Below, one piece after another: positions 7,819 to 15,657 of a stretch of DNA of 33,932 bases (positions within the stretch are counted from its first letter, which is position 1; every line of letters starts with the position of its first letter). A program made the position numbers and the translations under genes. Below the pieces are notes generated by a model. The model saw only the letters and a program-made list of their open reading frames with translations. It made no database searches and had not been told where the DNA came from. Origin of the DNA: Bacteroidota bacterium (GTDB lineage: Bacteria; Bacteroidota; Bacteroidia; Bacteroidales; VadinHA17); NCBI GenBank assembly GCA_003250475.1, contig QKGI01000078.1, forward strand, positions 1 to 33,932. The letters run 5' to 3'.

Positions 7819-8526
7819 CTATTTTTCCATTGCCCTTGCACGGAGGTCCGGTGGCATTTTTTCAATGGCGTACCTGAGTGCTGTGCGGGGCATGACAGCC
7901 TTATGCCGCATGACATATCCGAATACCTCCTCCCGGAACGGCTTGCTCGCCTCCTTAAGCATCCAGCCATAACCTTTCTGCACCATATCGTCCCTGTCAG
8001 TAAGAAGTATGTCTGCTATCTCAAAAATATCAGGAAGAAACATGCCCTTCCGGGCAGGGATGATCAGGGAGACTGCTGCCGCTCTTTTCACCCACCGGTT
8101 TTCAGAGCGGGCCCATTTTTTTAATTCACCGGTAAATTCAGGATACATCTGAATGAAGCCTCCGACAGTATGATTGCACAGGGTGTCACATGAGGCCCAG
8201 TTATTCACATAGTGATGAACCCAGTTTTCAAGTACGGCAAAATCATCCGGGACAAATTGCCTGGCCAGTTTCTCAGACCACATACAGGCAATGAATGTCT
8301 CCTCCATCATTCCGGACTGCCACAGGGTATCACACATCGAGAACACTTCTTCTTTCGTAAGCTGCCTGACCAGCTTATAACCGGCTTTCCCGATCTCACC
8401 CACTGTCTTTGACCTGACACCATACATGGAGACCTGCTCCCTGAAATATCTCTGTCCCGTCTGCCTGACCTTTACATCCGATGCTTCAACGAGCTCCTTA
8501 CGGATTTTTCCGAGTATCCTGTTCAT
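7819..8526 (-). CDS. AlkD-like DNA alkylation repair protein (HEAT-repeat DNA glycosylase)
   Basis: A 235-residue all-helical protein of the AlkC/AlkD HEAT-like superfamily. AlkD excises bulky or cationic alkylated purines without base flipping. Residues line up with Bacillus cereus AlkD: Trp110 and Asp114 (NWASCDTLC) against Trp109 and Asp113, Arg148 (RWVKRAA) against Arg148, and Trp188 (GYGWML) against Trp187. The WVKRAA-VSLI and MVQKGYGWMLKEA helices are strong family signatures. The start is 10 nt downstream of the stop of the membrane/NTPase gene, so it is probably the last gene of a four-gene minus-strand operon. The other operon genes show no obvious DNA-repair role. Confidence 0.9.
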   Translation of the reverse strand: MNRILGKIRKELVEASDVKVRQTGQRYFREQVSMYGVRSKTVGEIGKAGYKLVRQLTKEEVFSMCDTLWQSGMMEETFIACMWSEKLARQFVPDDFAVLENWVHHYVNNWASCDTLCNHTVGGFIQMYPEFTGELKKWARSENRWVKRAAAVSLIIPARKGMFLPDIFEIADILLTDRDDMVQKGYGWMLKEASKPFREEVFGYVMRHKAVMPRTALRYAIEKMPPDLRARAMEK

Positions 8527-8536
8527 TGCATTAATG

Positions 8537-10249
8537 CTATTTTTTCAGGGCTACTATCTCTTCAGCAATCTTCCACGGGTCACCTGTTCCCACATCTATG
8601 ACCTGTGCCTCAGCGATGCCATACTTCTCTATCACTGAGCCGGTAAGGCTATTTCTGACAGCTATTATTATGGTGGCAGAGGTATTCTGAATCAGCTCAT
8701 CAATACGGTTGCTCCATCCCTGGCCTCTCAGCTCCAGCGGGCCTGCCTCGTCAACTATAATCACCTCCCTGTCACTGTTGGCATATGGGTCCAGGGCATT
8801 CTGTCCGGCAACTACCCCCTCCTGTGACACAGTGAACCTCTCCACTCCAATGGTCTCGCTGCCTGTCAGTCTCAGAAAAGGTTTCCGTACTCCTGAGGAG
8901 ATATCCGAAATATCGTATCCGGTTGTTATACCGTCCTGGATAATGCGAAGAGCCAGTATGCCGCCAGTCTTGATGCCCTTCTCATTCAGAAGAGTACACA
9001 GCTTGATAAGCCAGGCAGTCTTGCCTTCACCTATGGCCCCGGTAATAATATATATCTTTCTTTTCTTTACCCGCTCATACCGTATCTCTGTCAGCCTTCT
9101 TTCAACGCGTGTGATCATCCTGTTAAGTATAGATACCGGTCTCTTAAATGCTGTCTTCAGATCCGGCATATCTGCAATCATTGTCGGCAGGCTGGCAGCA
9201 GATAATTCAAGAGCCACGGGCAACTGTCTGAAATAGGTACGGCTGAAGAGGCTGCGGATCTTCGGATTATAAAGCTCTGTGCCCAGTGCCGAAAATCCCA
9301 CAATGATTATAACAGCCCGGAAATTCATCTGGATGCCTATGAGTATGGCTTTGGTCAGATCATTCTTCCCGGGCTGGAATGCCGTAAACGCCAGGGCCGA
9401 GAGCATTGTTATGATGACAAAAGTGATCCAGAAACCCGGTTTCGACAGTTGTCTCATGGCGCGTTTGTAGCGCAAGGCAAGGATGGTGATCAGCGGTATC
9501 ACAGCGATGACCCACCATATCCAGTTGAGTAGACTGACTATAAGAAGCATGCCTGCAACAAGCAGTATATCAGCCACCAGCCATCCGGCAGAATAGTCAA
9601 ATTGCGAATCCGGCTTTTTCGGAGATGCCCTGATTATGGCAGGTTCGGGCAGTGGTCCTTCCGGGGGCAGCGCAGATATCTTGCGGCCGGTGATGATCCC
9701 GGCAACGGCAGTCACGGCTCCAAATAGTGCATATATCACAAGGAGAAGGATCAGGGGAGCCCAGAAAGCATCAAACTGCAGGTTCAGCTGCCTGGATGCA
9801 TAATCAGTAATGTTCTTGTAAATATCAACAAGATTACCACCATAGAAGATAATCATGTTGAATATCTTCTGGAAGAGGTTCCATGACATGGCGAGCATTG
9901 ACCCGATAATGAACCCAAGAAATGTTCTTCCAAAGATACGGATCGACGTTTCAAGCAGCAGTGATTCCATTATTATGGCGAGCATCGGCCCGAAGATGAT
10001 GGCACTTGGTGACATTGTCTTCATGAGAGCACAGATGATCCCGGCTCTCCAGTAGAGTCCATGTTCACGCCACCTGTAACTGACAGAGATAAGGATAACC
10101 AGGGCAACAGCGGTAAGGAGGTTACCGCTGAAAGGTACACGCAGGTTATGCAGGAAGCTTCCGAGAACAATCTCAGCTGCAGCCCATATGGTGCCGATGA
10201 TGGATGCCTTTATCCACTTATCGCTAATAATCGTCTTATCTCTGGTCAA
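8537..10249 (-). CDS. Multi-pass membrane protein fused to a THEP1-type NTPase domain
   Basis: The frame is open to a TTG at 10309, but that start overlaps the upstream gene by 32 nt. A TTG at 10249 gives a 570-residue protein beginning TRDKTIISDKW, which I prefer; no ATG exists before the first membrane helix. Residues about 12-190 form a cluster of hydrophobic helices with a KTMSPSAIIFGPMLAIIMES segment that resembles ECF-transporter S components. A Pro-rich linker follows, then a second helix cluster (about 220-345). The C-terminal 175 residues are a THEP1/NTPase_1 P-loop domain: Walker A GAIGEGKT (404-411), a TGGILALRI strand, and Walker B VIIVDEAGPLEL (Asp500/Glu501). The NTPase assignment is strong; the transporter idea is inference. 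The second helix cluster is only vaguely EcfT-like and lacks a clear Ala-Arg-Gly coupling motif. Confidence 0.8.
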   Translation of the reverse strand: MTRDKTIISDKWIKASIIGTIWAAAEIVLGSFLHNLRVPFSGNLLTAVALVILISVSYRWREHGLYWRAGIICALMKTMSPSAIIFGPMLAIIMESLLLETSIRIFGRTFLGFIIGSMLAMSWNLFQKIFNMIIFYGGNLVDIYKNITDYASRQLNLQFDAFWAPLILLLVIYALFGAVTAVAGIITGRKISALPPEGPLPEPAIIRASPKKPDSQFDYSAGWLVADILLVAGMLLIVSLLNWIWWVIAVIPLITILALRYKRAMRQLSKPGFWITFVIITMLSALAFTAFQPGKNDLTKAILIGIQMNFRAVIIIVGFSALGTELYNPKIRSLFSRTYFRQLPVALELSAASLPTMIADMPDLKTAFKRPVSILNRMITRVERRLTEIRYERVKKRKIYIITGAIGEGKTAWLIKLCTLLNEKGIKTGGILALRIIQDGITTGYDISDISSGVRKPFLRLTGSETIGVERFTVSQEGVVAGQNALDPYANSDREVIIVDEAGPLELRGQGWSNRIDELIQNTSATIIIAVRNSLTGSVIEKYGIAEAQVIDVGTGDPWKIAEEIVALKK

Positions 10250-10277: not shown

Positions 10278-11219
10278 TCAGAAAGGATCGCATTCCCTGT
10301 AGGCCTCAATAACCCTGGTCACACCCTCCGGACCTTTGATACTGCGGCCATGTTCCATGCAGATCACTCCTTCATAATCACGCGAGTGAAGATAACTGAA
10401 TATATTCTTATAATTGATCTCACCGGTGGATGGTTCGTTACGTCCGGGATTGTCACCCACGTGGAAAGCAGCTATCTGGTCCCAGCATGCATCGATGTTT
10501 GGAATCAGGTTGCCTTCTGTGATCTGCTGGTGATAAATATCTTCAACGATTTTCACAGCTGGGCTGTTGACCGCTTTGCACACCTGGTATGCCTGGGGCA
10601 TCCGTGTCAGCCAGAGTCCCGGGTGGTCACGGAGGGTGTTAAGAGGTTCCAGTACCAGTGTAATACCTTCCGGCTCGGTCAGTTCGGCACAGTATCTCAG
10701 GTTGTCAATGACATTGGCAAGCTGCAGCTCGGGGTGGATCTTCTCATCGTACCTGCCCGGCACTATGAGAGCCATTTTAAATCCTGTACGGTTGGCTATG
10801 TCAATCCCCTCTTCCATCTTCATAGACAGGAAATCACGCACCTCCCTGTGAGGAAGCACAAAAGATGCCTTGGAAAAATCGGCATATAGAACCCATGGCC
10901 CCATAAGCAGCCCCATGCGTTGTATCATAGAGGCGATACGCTCCTGCTCCCCCGGGTTACGTCCGGGCAGGCCGTTGTCAAAGACGGCCCTGAAACCCTT
11001 ATCGGCAATGAACTGGATATTATCAAGAGGGTCGTCGCTTCCGCACAGTTCACGGAACATACCTATCGAAGGGGCATAGGCCAGCCTGAACGGCTTGTCA
11101 ACAACGGCTGTGGGTACAGCCCGTTCTCTTCCGGAGACGAGTGCCGGAGCGGCTAAAAGCGCTGCCCCGGCTGCAGCTGTGCTGCTGATAAAACTACGTC
11201 GTGATCTTTTATCCATCAT
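10278..11219 (-). CDS. Tat-exported TIM-barrel sugar isomerase/epimerase (hydroxypyruvate isomerase-like)
   Basis: A 313-residue protein of the AP endonuclease family 2 (xylose isomerase-like) TIM barrel, closest in look to hydroxypyruvate isomerases. The N-terminus has a twin-arginine signal (KRSRRSFISS, Arg7-Arg8) followed by an Ala-rich hydrophobic segment, so the folded protein is probably exported. Metal-site features are LVLEPLN (Glu), VEDIYHQQ (Asp, His), a FHVGDNPGRNEPSTGEINY loop that is strongly hydroxypyruvate-isomerase-like, and CMEHG (Glu). Met1 and Met2 are adjacent, so the exact start is uncertain by one codon. It follows the Gfo/Idh/MocA oxidoreductase by 14 nt; such pairs often act on one sugar or polyol, here outside the cytoplasm. 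The substrate is unknown. Confidence 0.88.
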   Translation of the reverse strand: MMDKRSRRSFISSTAAAGAALLAAPALVSGRERAVPTAVVDKPFRLAYAPSIGMFRELCGSDDPLDNIQFIADKGFRAVFDNGLPGRNPGEQERIASMIQRMGLLMGPWVLYADFSKASFVLPHREVRDFLSMKMEEGIDIANRTGFKMALIVPGRYDEKIHPELQLANVIDNLRYCAELTEPEGITLVLEPLNTLRDHPGLWLTRMPQAYQVCKAVNSPAVKIVEDIYHQQITEGNLIPNIDACWDQIAAFHVGDNPGRNEPSTGEINYKNIFSYLHSRDYEGVICMEHGRSIKGPEGVTRVIEAYRECDPF

Positions 11220-11233
11220 TATAACAATTTGGT

Positions 11234-12562
11234 TTATTCACCCGGAACGGGTACGCTCTTTGAAACATCAACAGGCCCCATCTCAAACACCTTTGGTCCG
11301 AGTTTAAGCTCTGAGTTCATCATCTCATCCCATGTGACCTTCTTGCCGGTATATGCCGAGACCCGTCCCATCATGCCTGCCATGGTCGAATATGCAATGG
11401 ATTCTGCTTCATTTAATGGCCTGCCGGTCCGTATGGCAGTTACAAAATCTATATGCTCCTGATCATACGGGCTTCTTATAAGCTGATCGGTCATTTTGCC
11501 CTCATCATCGAGCTTATAGCCTTCATACTGCCATAATACTTCTCCTGCCTGATCCCATATGGTATTCTGACAGTTGGATGTTCCTTTTGTTCCCTGTATC
11601 CATTCCGAGACATTGTTATCGCATCCGTTAATCTGGCGGCACATACTGTGGACATGGAATCCGCCGTCATATATGAAGTCAGTGCTGAAGAGGTCATACT
11701 GGTCACCTGTGACACGGCGGTGACGTGCTCCGAACGATACTGCCGAAACAGGCTTCCTGCCGGTAAACCAGTTAATAACATCTATATTATGAACATGCTG
11801 TTCAATGATGTGGTCTCCTGACAGCCAGCACCAGTTAACCCAGTCGCGTATCATGTATTCCATCTCCGACCATGAGGGGTTTGGTTCACGATACCACAGC
11901 TGACCCTGGTTCCAGTAGCAATTGGCAGAGACAATATCACCTATCGTACCTTCCTGCACCTTGCCCCATGTCTCCACATAGTCATGCTGATGATGGCGTT
12001 GTGTACCTGTTACCACGCAGAGATCCATGCCCCTGGCCTTCTCCCCTGTGGCAAGGATTTGCCTTACACCCACCGGATCCACTGCCACAGGCTTCTCCAT
12101 GAAGACATGCTTTCCGGCAGTGACAGCAGCCTCAAAATGCTCAGGACGGAAATAAGGAGGTGTGGCCAGGATGACAATATCGACACCTGACTCTATAACC
12201 TTCTGAAAGGCGTCGAAGCCTGTGTAACAATTCTCATCGGCTATCTCAACACCCTCGCTAACCAGTCTCTCGCGACATGCCGTCACCCTGTCGGTGAAAA
12301 CGTCACCGAGAGCTGCTATTGTAAGGTTGGGCCCTGCATGAAGGAAGTTAAGGGCGGCACCGGTACCCCTGCCGCCGCAGCCTATCAGCCCCGCCTTAAG
12401 AAGCGGACCGTCAGGAGCCGAATCCAACATTACAGGAAGTATCACTTCCCTGCGTTTTGCGGATGTGCAAGAGGTTATCAGTGCCGGGGCGACAATACCT
12501 GCAGCTCCGGCGGCAGCTGCAGTGCCAAGAAAGCTTCTTCTGGTAAAGGATGATTTTTTCAT
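11234..12562 (-). CDS. Tat-exported Gfo/Idh/MocA family oxidoreductase
   Basis: A 442-residue NAD(P)-dependent dehydrogenase of the Gfo/Idh/MocA family, which oxidises or rearranges sugars and polyols. The N-terminus has a twin-arginine motif (FTRRSFLGT, Arg8-Arg9) and a hydrophobic stretch ending in LITSC, which fits a lipobox with Cys32. It may therefore be a Tat-exported lipoprotein. The Rossmann motif is GLIGCGGRGTG (Gly61, Gly63, Gly66) and the sugar-binding Lys is in MEKPVAVDP. A substrate-binding C-terminal domain contains WYREPNPSWSEMEY and IEQHVHNIDVINWF. In some Tat-exported members (glucose-fructose oxidoreductase) the cofactor is carried out bound. It heads the operon, with a promoter-like box 17 nt upstream. 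Confidence 0.9.
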   Translation of the reverse strand: MKKSSFTRRSFLGTAAAAGAAGIVAPALITSCTSAKRREVILPVMLDSAPDGPLLKAGLIGCGGRGTGAALNFLHAGPNLTIAALGDVFTDRVTACRERLVSEGVEIADENCYTGFDAFQKVIESGVDIVILATPPYFRPEHFEAAVTAGKHVFMEKPVAVDPVGVRQILATGEKARGMDLCVVTGTQRHHQHDYVETWGKVQEGTIGDIVSANCYWNQGQLWYREPNPSWSEMEYMIRDWVNWCWLSGDHIIEQHVHNIDVINWFTGRKPVSAVSFGARHRRVTGDQYDLFSTDFIYDGGFHVHSMCRQINGCDNNVSEWIQGTKGTSNCQNTIWDQAGEVLWQYEGYKLDDEGKMTDQLIRSPYDQEHIDFVTAIRTGRPLNEAESIAYSTMAGMMGRVSAYTGKKVTWDEMMNSELKLGPKVFEMGPVDVSKSVPVPGE

Positions 12563-12735: not shown

Positions 12736-14187
12736 TTACTTTTTTGTGCTTTCATAGCTTAACACTACTCTGAATCCTACGTAAAAACAATCGGAATACC
12801 ACCAGATGCTCTTCGGCATCTGGGGATCCGTTTTCAGCCACTCTTCAGTACGGGTGTGGTCACGCGCTGCACTCCTTACCCCGGCAGCACCGTCACGGTA
12901 TGACCCTCCCCTTATAACATGTTCACCAGTCCCATCGTACAGATCAGAACAAAACTCAGCAACATTTCCGCTCATATTTTTCAATCCCCACGGGTTTGCT
13001 CTTACGGCAGAAGGCTCCATGGTCTTTGACGGGCTGTTTTCATGGTAAATCACATAGGAATTTATTACCGATGTGTCAGGTTTCCCTCCAAATATTCCTT
13101 TCTTCCCGAACCTGGCCGGATCACCATCAAAGAAATAAGGTGTCTGTGTCCCTGCCCTGCAGGCGTATTCCCATTCGGCCTCGGTAGGCAGGCGGTAATG
13201 TTTTCCTGTGACATTTGACAACCACTTGCAGTAAGTTTCCGCAGCATGCCAGCTCATGGAAATTGCCGGTCTGCGGCCCATCCCCCAGTTCTGATCCGGT
13301 TTTCCGTAGGGTGGTGTAGCCCCGCTTATTGCATCAACATCTTTTACTCTCGTTCTCGCCCCCTCAGTATCTGTTGAGCGGCCCTCGGTTGCAGTCTGCC
13401 TGTAAAATTCCATGTACTCATCCCATGTGACTTCCGTCTCCGCAATAAAGAATGAGTCGACCACCACTTCACGGGCGACTTCATCGGGATCACGCAAAGG
13501 CTCATCCTCAGGGCTCCCCATAGTAAAAGACCCCCCGGGGAGTGCAATCATCCTGAACGACACGGCAGAGCCCGGTATCTGCTCTTCAAAATCGCCAAAA
13601 GATATCAGTTCGGCCGGTGCATTGAAGATAGTGTCAGACCTGGTTGCTCCGGTACCAAAACCTGTGTTGCTGCCGTGGAGGTATCCTTCCATATAATGCC
13701 CTGTATTCAGATGACAGCTTATACATTGCAAATCTTCACCTTTTTTGCGGAGCTGGCTGTAGTAGAGATGTGCTTCCGACCCCTCGCGGCTAAGTACAGC
13801 AGGAAAAAGGTTCGCATGGCATTTTATGCAGGAGAGGTTATATACGTGCATCGTGGCGCGCTCTGTTGTTGAGGCTGCCTCCCAGTCAAAATCCGCTGAG
13901 TCTTTTGTCCAGTTACTCCAGAGGTCGCGCAGTCCCGTCCTGGTCTTTTCCACCAGATAGCCCTCCCCTTCAGGTGGCAGATGACATTCGGTACAGGAGA
14001 CATGATAACCCGAGCGGGTGGTATAGTGGGGTCCCTGCTTCCAGCTAAGGATGGCCTGCGGATGCACATGACACGAGGCACAGAAAGCATTCGTCGAGGT
14101 AGCCTTAACGGCCTTCCCTGTAAGAAAAAAAATGAGTGCTCCTGCAATAATTCCAGAAATAAACCACAAGACGATCTTCCTCTTCAC
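12736..14187 (-). CDS. Tetraheme NapC/NrfH-type cytochrome c fused to an FGE/sulfatase-modifying-factor-fold domain
   Basis: A 483-residue two-part protein starting at a GTG. Residues 5-23 form a membrane anchor. Four CxxCH heme sites follow at 36-40 (CASCH), 65-69 (CTECH), 120-124 (CIKCH) and 155-159 (CISCH), the pattern of NapC/NirT/NrfH quinol-oxidising cytochromes. Residues about 209-478 are an FGE-sulfatase (SUMF1) domain: PGGSFTMGSPEDEP, VTWDEYMEF, RLPTEAEWEYACRAG, NMSGNVAEFCSD, VIRGGSYRDG and YVGFRV. The two cysteines that bind copper in true formylglycine-generating enzymes are absent from the RGGSYRDGAAGVRSAARDH region, so sulfatase activation is unlikely. The domain may bind a ligand or partner. 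Hemes and the C-terminal domain should lie on the periplasmic side. No nitrite-reductase partner gene is nearby. Confidence 0.9.
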   Translation of the reverse strand: MKRKIVLWFISGIIAGALIFFLTGKAVKATSTNAFCASCHVHPQAILSWKQGPHYTTRSGYHVSCTECHLPPEGEGYLVEKTRTGLRDLWSNWTKDSADFDWEAASTTERATMHVYNLSCIKCHANLFPAVLSREGSEAHLYYSQLRKKGEDLQCISCHLNTGHYMEGYLHGSNTGFGTGATRSDTIFNAPAELISFGDFEEQIPGSAVSFRMIALPGGSFTMGSPEDEPLRDPDEVAREVVVDSFFIAETEVTWDEYMEFYRQTATEGRSTDTEGARTRVKDVDAISGATPPYGKPDQNWGMGRRPAISMSWHAAETYCKWLSNVTGKHYRLPTEAEWEYACRAGTQTPYFFDGDPARFGKKGIFGGKPDTSVINSYVIYHENSPSKTMEPSAVRANPWGLKNMSGNVAEFCSDLYDGTGEHVIRGGSYRDGAAGVRSAARDHTRTEEWLKTDPQMPKSIWWYSDCFYVGFRVVLSYESTKK

Positions 14188-14243: not shown

Positions 14244-14297
14244 ATGAATGAACCACGACTGTAAAAACTCTGCAGGTAACCTTTCAGGTGAAATTAT

Positions 14298-14305
14298 TAC
14301 ATTTG
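14298..14305 (+). promoter_or_regulatory. Candidate Bacteroidota -7 promoter box for the nucleoside-hydrolase/GH20 pair
   Basis: TACATTTG matches TAnnTTTG and lies 14 nt before the ATG at 14320. It supports 14320 as the start over the upstream ATG at 14248, since the box would otherwise be inside the gene. The -33 partner is not clear. Confidence 0.45.
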
Positions 14306-14319
14306 GAAAAAGGCAAATA

Positions 14320-15657
14320 ATGAGACGCACCCTTCTTCTCTTCATCGTTTTCCTGGTCATGATCCCGGCAGGGGCACATCCGTGGAAACCCCGTCACTAT
14401 GTTATTATTGACAGTGACGGAGGTATTGACGACCTTAAAGCTATATGCATGTTGATGTCATCTCCTGATGTAAGGATACTTGCCATTACCGCTTCTGACG
14501 GCTTTTTTGAAGCTCCTGTTGCCTACAGAAAGATCAGGGATCTGGCAGACGGTATGTGGCATGAGGGATTACCGGTGTCAGAAAAAGAAAGAGCAGTAAA
14601 CTTAATTGAGGATATCCTTGTTTCCGAGACCACCCCTGTGACATTTATTGCCATGGGAACACTGAAGACGGCAGCTGAGGCAATGGAACGCTCAGACCTG
14701 TTCACAAAGAAAGTGACCCGTATACTGTGGAGCAACAGCGGGCTTCCGGGAAGAGAAGGCTTTAATTTCAGGTCTGATCCGGATGCTGCCGCAAGTGTGC
14801 TGGCCGGAAGCCTGCCTGTAGTTGTTACCGGCAGCGGTGGAGAGGGATTCTATGATGATCAGCTCCTCCGGGAGATAGATTCTATACGGACACCGGGGGC
14901 AGAACGGGTTGAGGCGCTTATCAGATCGATGCCCTCACACGAGTTTGTCTATACAGCTTTTGATGAAATGCTGGCACTGCTGCTGCACTATCCCGAACTC
15001 TTCAGCCAGACTGCCGCCGAAGGAAAAGCCATCTACCGTGCTCCGGCAGATATATCCGCCCTGCGAAGAGCAGCAGTGGCCATACTCAGGGGGGAGACGG
15101 TTGCCAGGATGCAGGTTGTCAAGACCATGCCCTCCGACACAGCATTCTATATGTCAGATCTGCAGCCGTTTGTTGAAGAGATTCGCAACAGTTACGGTGA
15201 AGATGAATGGACCTCAGGTGTTATAGCAAATGAACTGCACCGGCACCTTGGCGTTTTTGCAATAATAGGTGTAAAGATGGGCATCCGGGCAAGGGAATAC
15301 TTCTGTACCGGTGTTGATGAGATGAGTGTCACCACCCATACCGGCTCCATTCCGCCCCTGAGCTGCATGAACGACGGCATACAGGTCAGCACCGGCGCCA
15401 CTCCAGGCCACGGATTGCTCACTGTCAGCCAGGAAAAACCATTTATAGCAGCTGCCGACTTCACCCATAAAAACCGGACCATACGTATCTCCCTGAATAA
15501 AGAACTGGCTGACAGGATATCATCGGAGTTGAAAGAGATAAATTTCATTTACGGACTTGACAGCGATATTTACTGGGAGCTTGTAAGACAAAACACGATC
15601 AAATATTGGCAGCAGTTCAACAGGCATGAGATTTTTAATATTGAAATAATCAAATAG
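14320..15657 (+). CDS. Exported nucleoside hydrolase-like protein (IUNH fold)
   Basis: A 445-residue protein with the inosine-uridine nucleoside hydrolase fold. The frame is open from 14248, but the ATG at 14320 gives a proper signal peptide (MRRTLLLFIVFLVMIPAGAH), so I start there. The calcium-binding Asp cluster is DSDGGIDD (31-38), close to the family DTDxGxDDA. A VTFIAMGTLKTAAEAME segment corresponds to the family's core strand before the second metal loop. Family members cleave the N-glycosidic bond of nucleosides. The C-terminal ~150 residues are longer than in classical enzymes (about 315 residues) and I do not recognise them. The GH20 gene follows by 8 nt, so the two are co-transcribed and both act outside the cytoplasm. 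Confidence 0.8.
   Translation: MRRTLLLFIVFLVMIPAGAHPWKPRHYVIIDSDGGIDDLKAICMLMSSPDVRILAITASDGFFEAPVAYRKIRDLADGMWHEGLPVSEKERAVNLIEDILVSETTPVTFIAMGTLKTAAEAMERSDLFTKKVTRILWSNSGLPGREGFNFRSDPDAAASVLAGSLPVVVTGSGGEGFYDDQLLREIDSIRTPGAERVEALIRSMPSHEFVYTAFDEMLALLLHYPELFSQTAAEGKAIYRAPADISALRRAAVAILRGETVARMQVVKTMPSDTAFYMSDLQPFVEEIRNSYGEDEWTSGVIANELHRHLGVFAIIGVKMGIRAREYFCTGVDEMSVTTHTGSIPPLSCMNDGIQVSTGATPGHGLLTVSQEKPFIAAADFTHKNRTIRISLNKELADRISSELKEINFIYGLDSDIYWELVRQNTIKYWQQFNRHEIFNIEIIK

Follow-up and report, generated by a model that had tools for sequence, protein, structure and literature searches.

What does a membrane protein do when it carries a THEP1-type NTPase on the same chain? The question is raised by a fusion gene on contig QKGI01000078.1, analysed here as a window of 33,932 nt (the whole stretch of DNA examined), within which all positions are given unless another locus is named. 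A preliminary description of the gene had listed two hydrophobic helix clusters, a proline-rich linker and a P-loop domain with the motifs GAIGEGKT and VIIVDEAGPLE; all are present, in a reading frame on the minus strand that is open up to 10309, with homologue alignments beginning at the TTG codon at 10249 (Table 1). The gene is the third in a row of four tightly spaced, co-directional genes and occurs as a single copy in its own genome. Twelve homologues of the same design, from Bacteroidales or Bacteroidetes MAGs, share 48–79% identity with it; the whole fusion is covered in ten, and two end at contig edges, one of which (L006) still extends into the NTPase. Across these MAG homologues the membrane part is better conserved than the NTPase, and close relatives keep the gene order around the fusion gene, whose occurrence is far beyond chance. 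Two further proteins of the window also combine domains, one joining a nucleoside hydrolase domain to an FmdE domain and the other a NapC/NirT-type cytochrome to a formylglycine-generating-enzyme-like (FGE-sulfatase) domain.

Table 1. Features of the window and of loci from the family survey (locus prefix L), with their positions
Feature	Position	Strand	Residues or size	Basis or remark
S-T-THEP1 fusion gene	8537..10249	minus	570 aa	TTG start 10249; stop 8537-8539
S-component-like membrane domain	9659..10231	minus	7-197	structural match 5edl
Variable Pro-rich linker	9602..9658	minus	198-216	low pLDDT
EcfT-like membrane domain and cytosolic helices	9062..9601	minus	217-396	VIA, TIGR02454, hhalign
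THEP1-type NTPase domain	8540..9061	minus	397-570	PF03266; 1ye8, 2i3b
Walker A, GAIGEGKT	9017..9040	minus	404-411	conservation analysis
Walker B region, VIIVDEAGPLE	8732..8764	minus	496-506	sequence, conservation analysis
GFO/IDH oxidoreductase	11234-12562			co-directional with fusion gene
Xylose-isomerase-like	10278-11219			co-directional with fusion gene
DNA alkylation repair	7819-8526			co-directional with fusion gene
Nucleoside hydrolase and FmdE domains	14248-15657	plus		one protein
NapC/NirT-type cytochrome and FGE-sulfatase-like domain	12736-14187	minus		one protein
THEP1 fused to MobA-like nucleotidyltransferase	L079:7968-9023			genome G010
Putative heavy-metal-chelation gene (DUF4213/DUF364)	L078:8344-9153			overlaps S-T-THEP1 start
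Lone S-like proteins	L124:2852-3433, L131:16891-17469, L137:4636-5208, L140:5537-6145

The C-terminal domain is certainly a THEP1, a predicted NTPase. PF03266 (NTPase_1/THEP1) matches residues 401–544 with an E value of 8.9e-19 and a score of 68.4 bits (cut-off 23.9), and the predicted model of the domain aligns with 1ye8 at Z 18.6 and with 2i3b at Z 16.3, which bears out the earlier THEP1 assignment. A match to PF03205 (MobB) was sought for the window protein and none was found; one split THEP1 homologue reached E 0.007 for that family, under the cut-off.

For the membrane part, an AlphaFold model of the full chain was obtained from an alignment of only 13 sequences (pLDDT 64.5). In this predicted model, residues 7–197 match 5edl with a VIA Z score of 13.7 (rmsd 3.4, 164 aligned residues), the next rows for the membrane part falling at Z 6.7–6.9; Foldseek recovers the same match at a probability of 1.00. 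We take 5edl to be YkoE, and PF09819 (ABC_cobalt) to be the YkoE family. Among split S homologues there are matches to PF09819 (E 4e-4) and PF09605 (E 6e-3), both under cut-off, the best split S homologue reaching 20.9 bits for PF09819 against a Pfam cut-off of 25.2. No PF09819 match was returned by Pfam for the window protein itself, and a sequence search of solved structures with the family profile gave no relevant match. DUF4131 was considered for the window membrane part and rejected, the Pfam match being weak and unconvincing; Pfam offered no better family. Within the S domain, E26, G30, G42 and G137 are invariant family-wide, and H34 and K77 nearly so. The model thus supports the fold of an ECF substrate-binding (S) subunit for residues 7–197, in keeping with the ECF-like helices proposed before, and neither helix cluster matched a known non-transporter family.

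The second helix cluster is more difficult. Residues 200–396 were modelled alone, yielding a weak model (pLDDT 61), for which all of the top eight VIA rows (8bms, 7nnu, 7nnt, 5d3m, 4rfs, 5x3x, 6zg3, 4huq) are EcfT/CbiQ structures at Z 8.5 to 6.8, the highest unrelated row standing at Z 5.8. Foldseek returned nothing significant with this model, placing 4huq_T at rank 11 (E 3.1), and the EcfT set is separated from other matches only by the VIA second look. At the sequence level, four of the five stand-alone T homologues match TIGR02454 (ECF_T_CbiQ), with E values between 2.9e-5 and 2.1e-3; the best of these lies under the curated cut-off. Against ten fetched CbiQ records, hhalign gave E values of 2.5e-4 to 3.9e-3 (7.4e-4 for the family, 2.5e-4 for the stand-alone T), as compared with 0.05 or worse for control membrane families. 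R311 and P355 are conserved in the T domain, and past I315 P355 alone reaches at least 60% conservation among 48 aligned members; a coupling-arginine motif of the Ala-Arg-Gly type, sought over the same 48, is not conserved. The three methods agree on a remote homology of residues 217–396 to EcfT, with none decisive singly, so that we hold the relationship with moderate strength. The preliminary description had doubted an EcfT-like second cluster: its doubt stands as regards the coupling motif and yields as regards EcfT-specific similarity.

To place the fusion in a wider context, related genomes were searched and the neighbourhoods read, giving 62 loci with S or T genes. THEP1 is fused to the C-terminus of S-T at 19 of these (the window is additional) and to the N-terminus, as THEP1-S-T, at five; it is a separate gene near S/T at 16 (11 adjacent, five within three genes), and the fetched stretch contains no THEP1 at 22. 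The association of THEP1 with S-T is conserved, in three arrangements, and the gene-fusion argument is strong because the C- and N-terminal fusions have different domain orders. The possibility that the NTPase is an unrelated neighbour thus gives way to a conserved fusion or partnership. At L074, L075 and L082 the operon order is molybdoenzyme, S, T, TonB receptor and THEP1, all as separate genes; further TonB receptors occur at L078, L080, L124 and L131. Only 2/62 loci have an ABC ATPase no more than three genes away, and from sequence and neighbours we judge the two to be MlaF-type (represented by its N-terminus) and PstB-type in a phosphate (Pst-like) operon. No EcfA/EcfA' pair was found within three genes of S/T at the 62 loci. 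These domains and their conserved partnership support the earlier suggestion that THEP1 takes the place of the ABC ATPases, and from them we infer transport itself.

Several variants of the family were also observed. In the reversed THEP1-S-T fusions (L072, L073, L083, L142, L143) the T part is shortened, and none of them has molybdenum neighbours; L072 adjoins a phosphate (Pst-like) operon. These fusions possibly serve another substrate. S-like proteins of approximately 191–203 aa occur at four loci with no adjoining T or THEP1 (Table 1), the one at L124 in a cluster with a cytochrome b, a multihaem cytochrome, a two-component pair and a NapA-type molybdoenzyme. At L151 (G536) and L152 (G396), THEP1 is retained at the position where relatives have S-T and THEP1, and S-T is gone; both genomes contain molybdo-hydroxylases and lack MoaC. 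A putative heavy-metal-chelation gene overlaps the start of S-T-THEP1 at L078, with the TonB receptor upstream.

The neighbourhoods also connect the family with molybdenum, a link absent from the preliminary description and new in the present analysis. A molybdoenzyme, of several kinds, or a cofactor gene such as MobA/MocA lies within the fetched stretch at 24 of the 62 loci. Psr-type enzymes occur at L084, L119–L121, L123, L126 and L133, and a Psr-type operon together with MobA at L065 and L067; NapA-type molybdoenzymes are found at L074, L075, L124 and L131, a Fer4 subunit with a TorD/NarJ-type chaperone at L082, and the xanthine-dehydrogenase type at L068 and L069 (with XdhC/MocA) and at L071 and L147 (without). 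MobA is a neighbour at L116, L140 and L148; a lone THEP1 overlaps a MobA-like gene at L145 and a MOSC-domain gene at L146; and at L079 the THEP1-MobA fusion of Table 1 sits beside the S-T gene and FdhD. The nearest relatives outside the window's close group are L012, where a DmsABC-type operon directly follows a fused homologue of the same architecture, and L013, which is similar. No molybdenum genes were found in the fetched stretches of the loci nearest to the window, and the window's fusion gene has as its immediate neighbours genes for a sugar-type oxidoreductase, an isomerase and DNA repair, likewise with no molybdenum genes among them. YeeE/YedE-type genes also recur near S-T (L065, L084, L119–L123, L126, L127, L133, L134), mostly adjoining Psr-type operons.

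We scored 80 hand-picked and phylogenetically related genomes, 46 with S-T and 34 without (the latter rechecked with the membrane profile), for MoaC, MoaE, MoeA, ModB, bis-MGD enzymes and molybdo-hydroxylases; MoaA, sulfite-oxidase-type enzymes and EcfA were outside this genome-wide scoring. PF01568 matches of approximately 28–41 bits in frames of approximately 1000–1055 aa, which we take to be ActB-like, cofactor-free relatives, were excluded from the molybdoenzymes. All 32 genomes with MoaC have molybdoenzymes. Among the 48 that lack MoaC, S-T is present in 22 of the 26 with molybdoenzymes as compared with 6 of the 22 without; the Fisher p value of 9e-5 is only indicative, the genomes being related and hand-picked. 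Genome profile searches found no MoaC, MoaE or MoeA in 20 S-T carriers with molybdoenzymes, G347 and G355 among them being single-contig genomes, and the best ModB-type matches in these 20 score below 70 bits, where the cut-off is 182.6. These carriers therefore have no cofactor synthesis by the known route and, with neither molybdopterin synthesis nor molybdenum insertion by the known pathway, would need the cofactor ready-made. Four genomes with molybdo-hydroxylases have neither MoaC nor S-T (G253, G404, G396, G536), and six S-T genomes have neither tested class of molybdoenzyme. The window's own genome contains MoaC, MoaE and MoeA, as well as a ModB-like permease adjoining moaC/moeA.

These data suggest, at about an even chance, that S-T-THEP1 is an ECF-like, single-chain importer of molybdenum cofactor or molybdopterin in which THEP1 replaces the ABC ATPases. 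The protein would move its substrate inward, with THEP1 as motor or coupling device; the molybdenum cofactor (Mo-molybdopterin) or a precursor of the molybdopterin type is the most probable substrate. Passage over the outer membrane into the periplasm would, for some relatives, depend on a TonB-dependent receptor, and the S domain would bind the cofactor at the inner membrane. NTP binding and hydrolysis by THEP1 could then act through the cytosolic helices of the T domain, releasing the cofactor inside, where MobA or MocA would add a nucleotide before its entry into molybdoenzymes. For the window's genus, itself capable of cofactor synthesis, the importer would be a second, salvage source; local context gives molybdenum no support there, and the substrate in this genus may be a different one. 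A wider reading, to which we lean somewhat less, is that of a new transporter class: ECF-like S-T driven by THEP1, with or without a TonB receptor, importing intact molybdenum cofactor and so enabling auxotrophy in genomes that lack MoaC, MoaE and MoeA and keep enzymes of the nitrate-, polysulfide- and DMSO-reductase types and the xanthine-dehydrogenase type.

Plain molybdate import was our first guess, moved to second place by the absence of MoaC, MoaE and MoeA from the 20 carriers, since imported molybdate would be unusable there by the known route. In that reading the transporter is the same and its substrate is molybdate, tungstate or a chelate, the TonB receptor and S-T-THEP1 replacing ModABC. 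The molybdoenzyme neighbours, the many carriers with no ModB-type permease, and the chelation gene and TonB receptor at L078 would suit it; however, ligands of ECF S subunits are mostly small organic compounds, and the window genome already has its ModB-like permease. We consider it unlikely, favouring cofactor import because the 20 carriers would need a ready-made cofactor, a TonB receptor is present at some loci and the folds are those of importers. Those folds, like the TonB receptor within the operon, also speak against a membrane platform for cofactor maturation or insertion, in which THEP1 would act as MobB does, as an adaptor GTPase of MobA. Such a role would account for the THEP1-MobA fusion and for the MobA/MocA genes that adjoin S-T or THEP1, and MobB structures (4oyh, 4nkr) are among the P-loop matches of the NTPase domain; but at Z 7 many other P-loop proteins match at least as well, and the presence of S-T in genomes that have no cofactor synthesis would be left unexplained, which makes the platform a rather unlikely candidate.

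The molybdenum link would be incidental if the protein imported some other vitamin-like compound, a thiamin precursor being one example, as with YkoE (the protein of 5edl, the closest S-component structure). The window's genus and the N-terminal fusions, with no molybdenum neighbours, fit this reading, and substrates may differ among subfamilies; repeated linkage to MobA and to several unrelated types of molybdoenzyme, together with the co-occurrence of S-T and molybdoenzymes in MoaC-less genomes, nevertheless renders it improbable for the family. Least probable by far is a membrane sensor or regulator with THEP1 as its switch, the alternative named in the preliminary description, for which the checks brought up no support. 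THEP1 enzymes are slow NTPases, and histidine kinase genes lie near L081 and L124, as would befit a sensor; the chain has no output domain, however, and S, T and TonB receptor form a transport set. Counting against cofactor import itself are the capacity of the window's genus to make its own cofactor, the window's neighbours outside molybdenum metabolism, the four cofactor-lacking genomes with molybdoenzymes and no S-T, the six S-T genomes with neither tested molybdoenzyme class, the weak T-half model, the missing coupling-arginine motif, the fact that THEP1 is not a known transport motor, and the 22/62 loci with no THEP1 in the fetched stretch.

If cofactor import is correct, bacteria would share the molybdenum cofactor as a nutrient, a group of genomes from the same phylum would be predicted cofactor auxotrophs, and THEP1, which to our knowledge is not known as a transport motor, would gain a physiological function as one. 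The literature searched contained no description of THEP1 together with molybdenum or with cofactor uptake or salvage, and no importer of molybdenum cofactor. Work on nematodes states as an open question how the fragile molybdenum cofactor crosses membranes (PMC9793310); the present family would possibly be a long-sought route for the ready-made cofactor into cells.

Among known systems, ECF transporters share with this family the S-type fold, an EcfT-related domain, separate S and T genes at some loci and a vitamin-type logic; they differ in that the family has THEP1 in place of nearby EcfA ABC ATPases and, in the window, unites the S, T and NTPase domains on a single chain, with no EcfT coupling-arginine motif. 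Since nearby EcfA ABC ATPases and that motif were sought and not found, S-T-THEP1 is not a strict member of the ECF transporters. The YkoE-type S component (PF09819) is what the S half resembles most closely in structure, and it is weakly matched in sequence by split homologues, under the cut-off, and its genomic context is different. ModABC, WtpABC and TupABC, the molybdate/tungstate ABC transporters, would serve the same enzymes but have no components found in common with the family, the ModB-like permease of the window genome being additional. MobB resembles the NTPase as the P-loop partner of MobA, and a THEP1-MobA fusion exists, but the window's NTPase matches THEP1 far better. With THEP1/NTPCR (PF03266; 1ye8, 2i3b) it shares the fold, Walker A and B and a score above the Pfam cut-off; whereas the solved structures are single-domain, the THEP1 of this family comes together with ECF-like membrane domains, either on one chain or as a separate partner.
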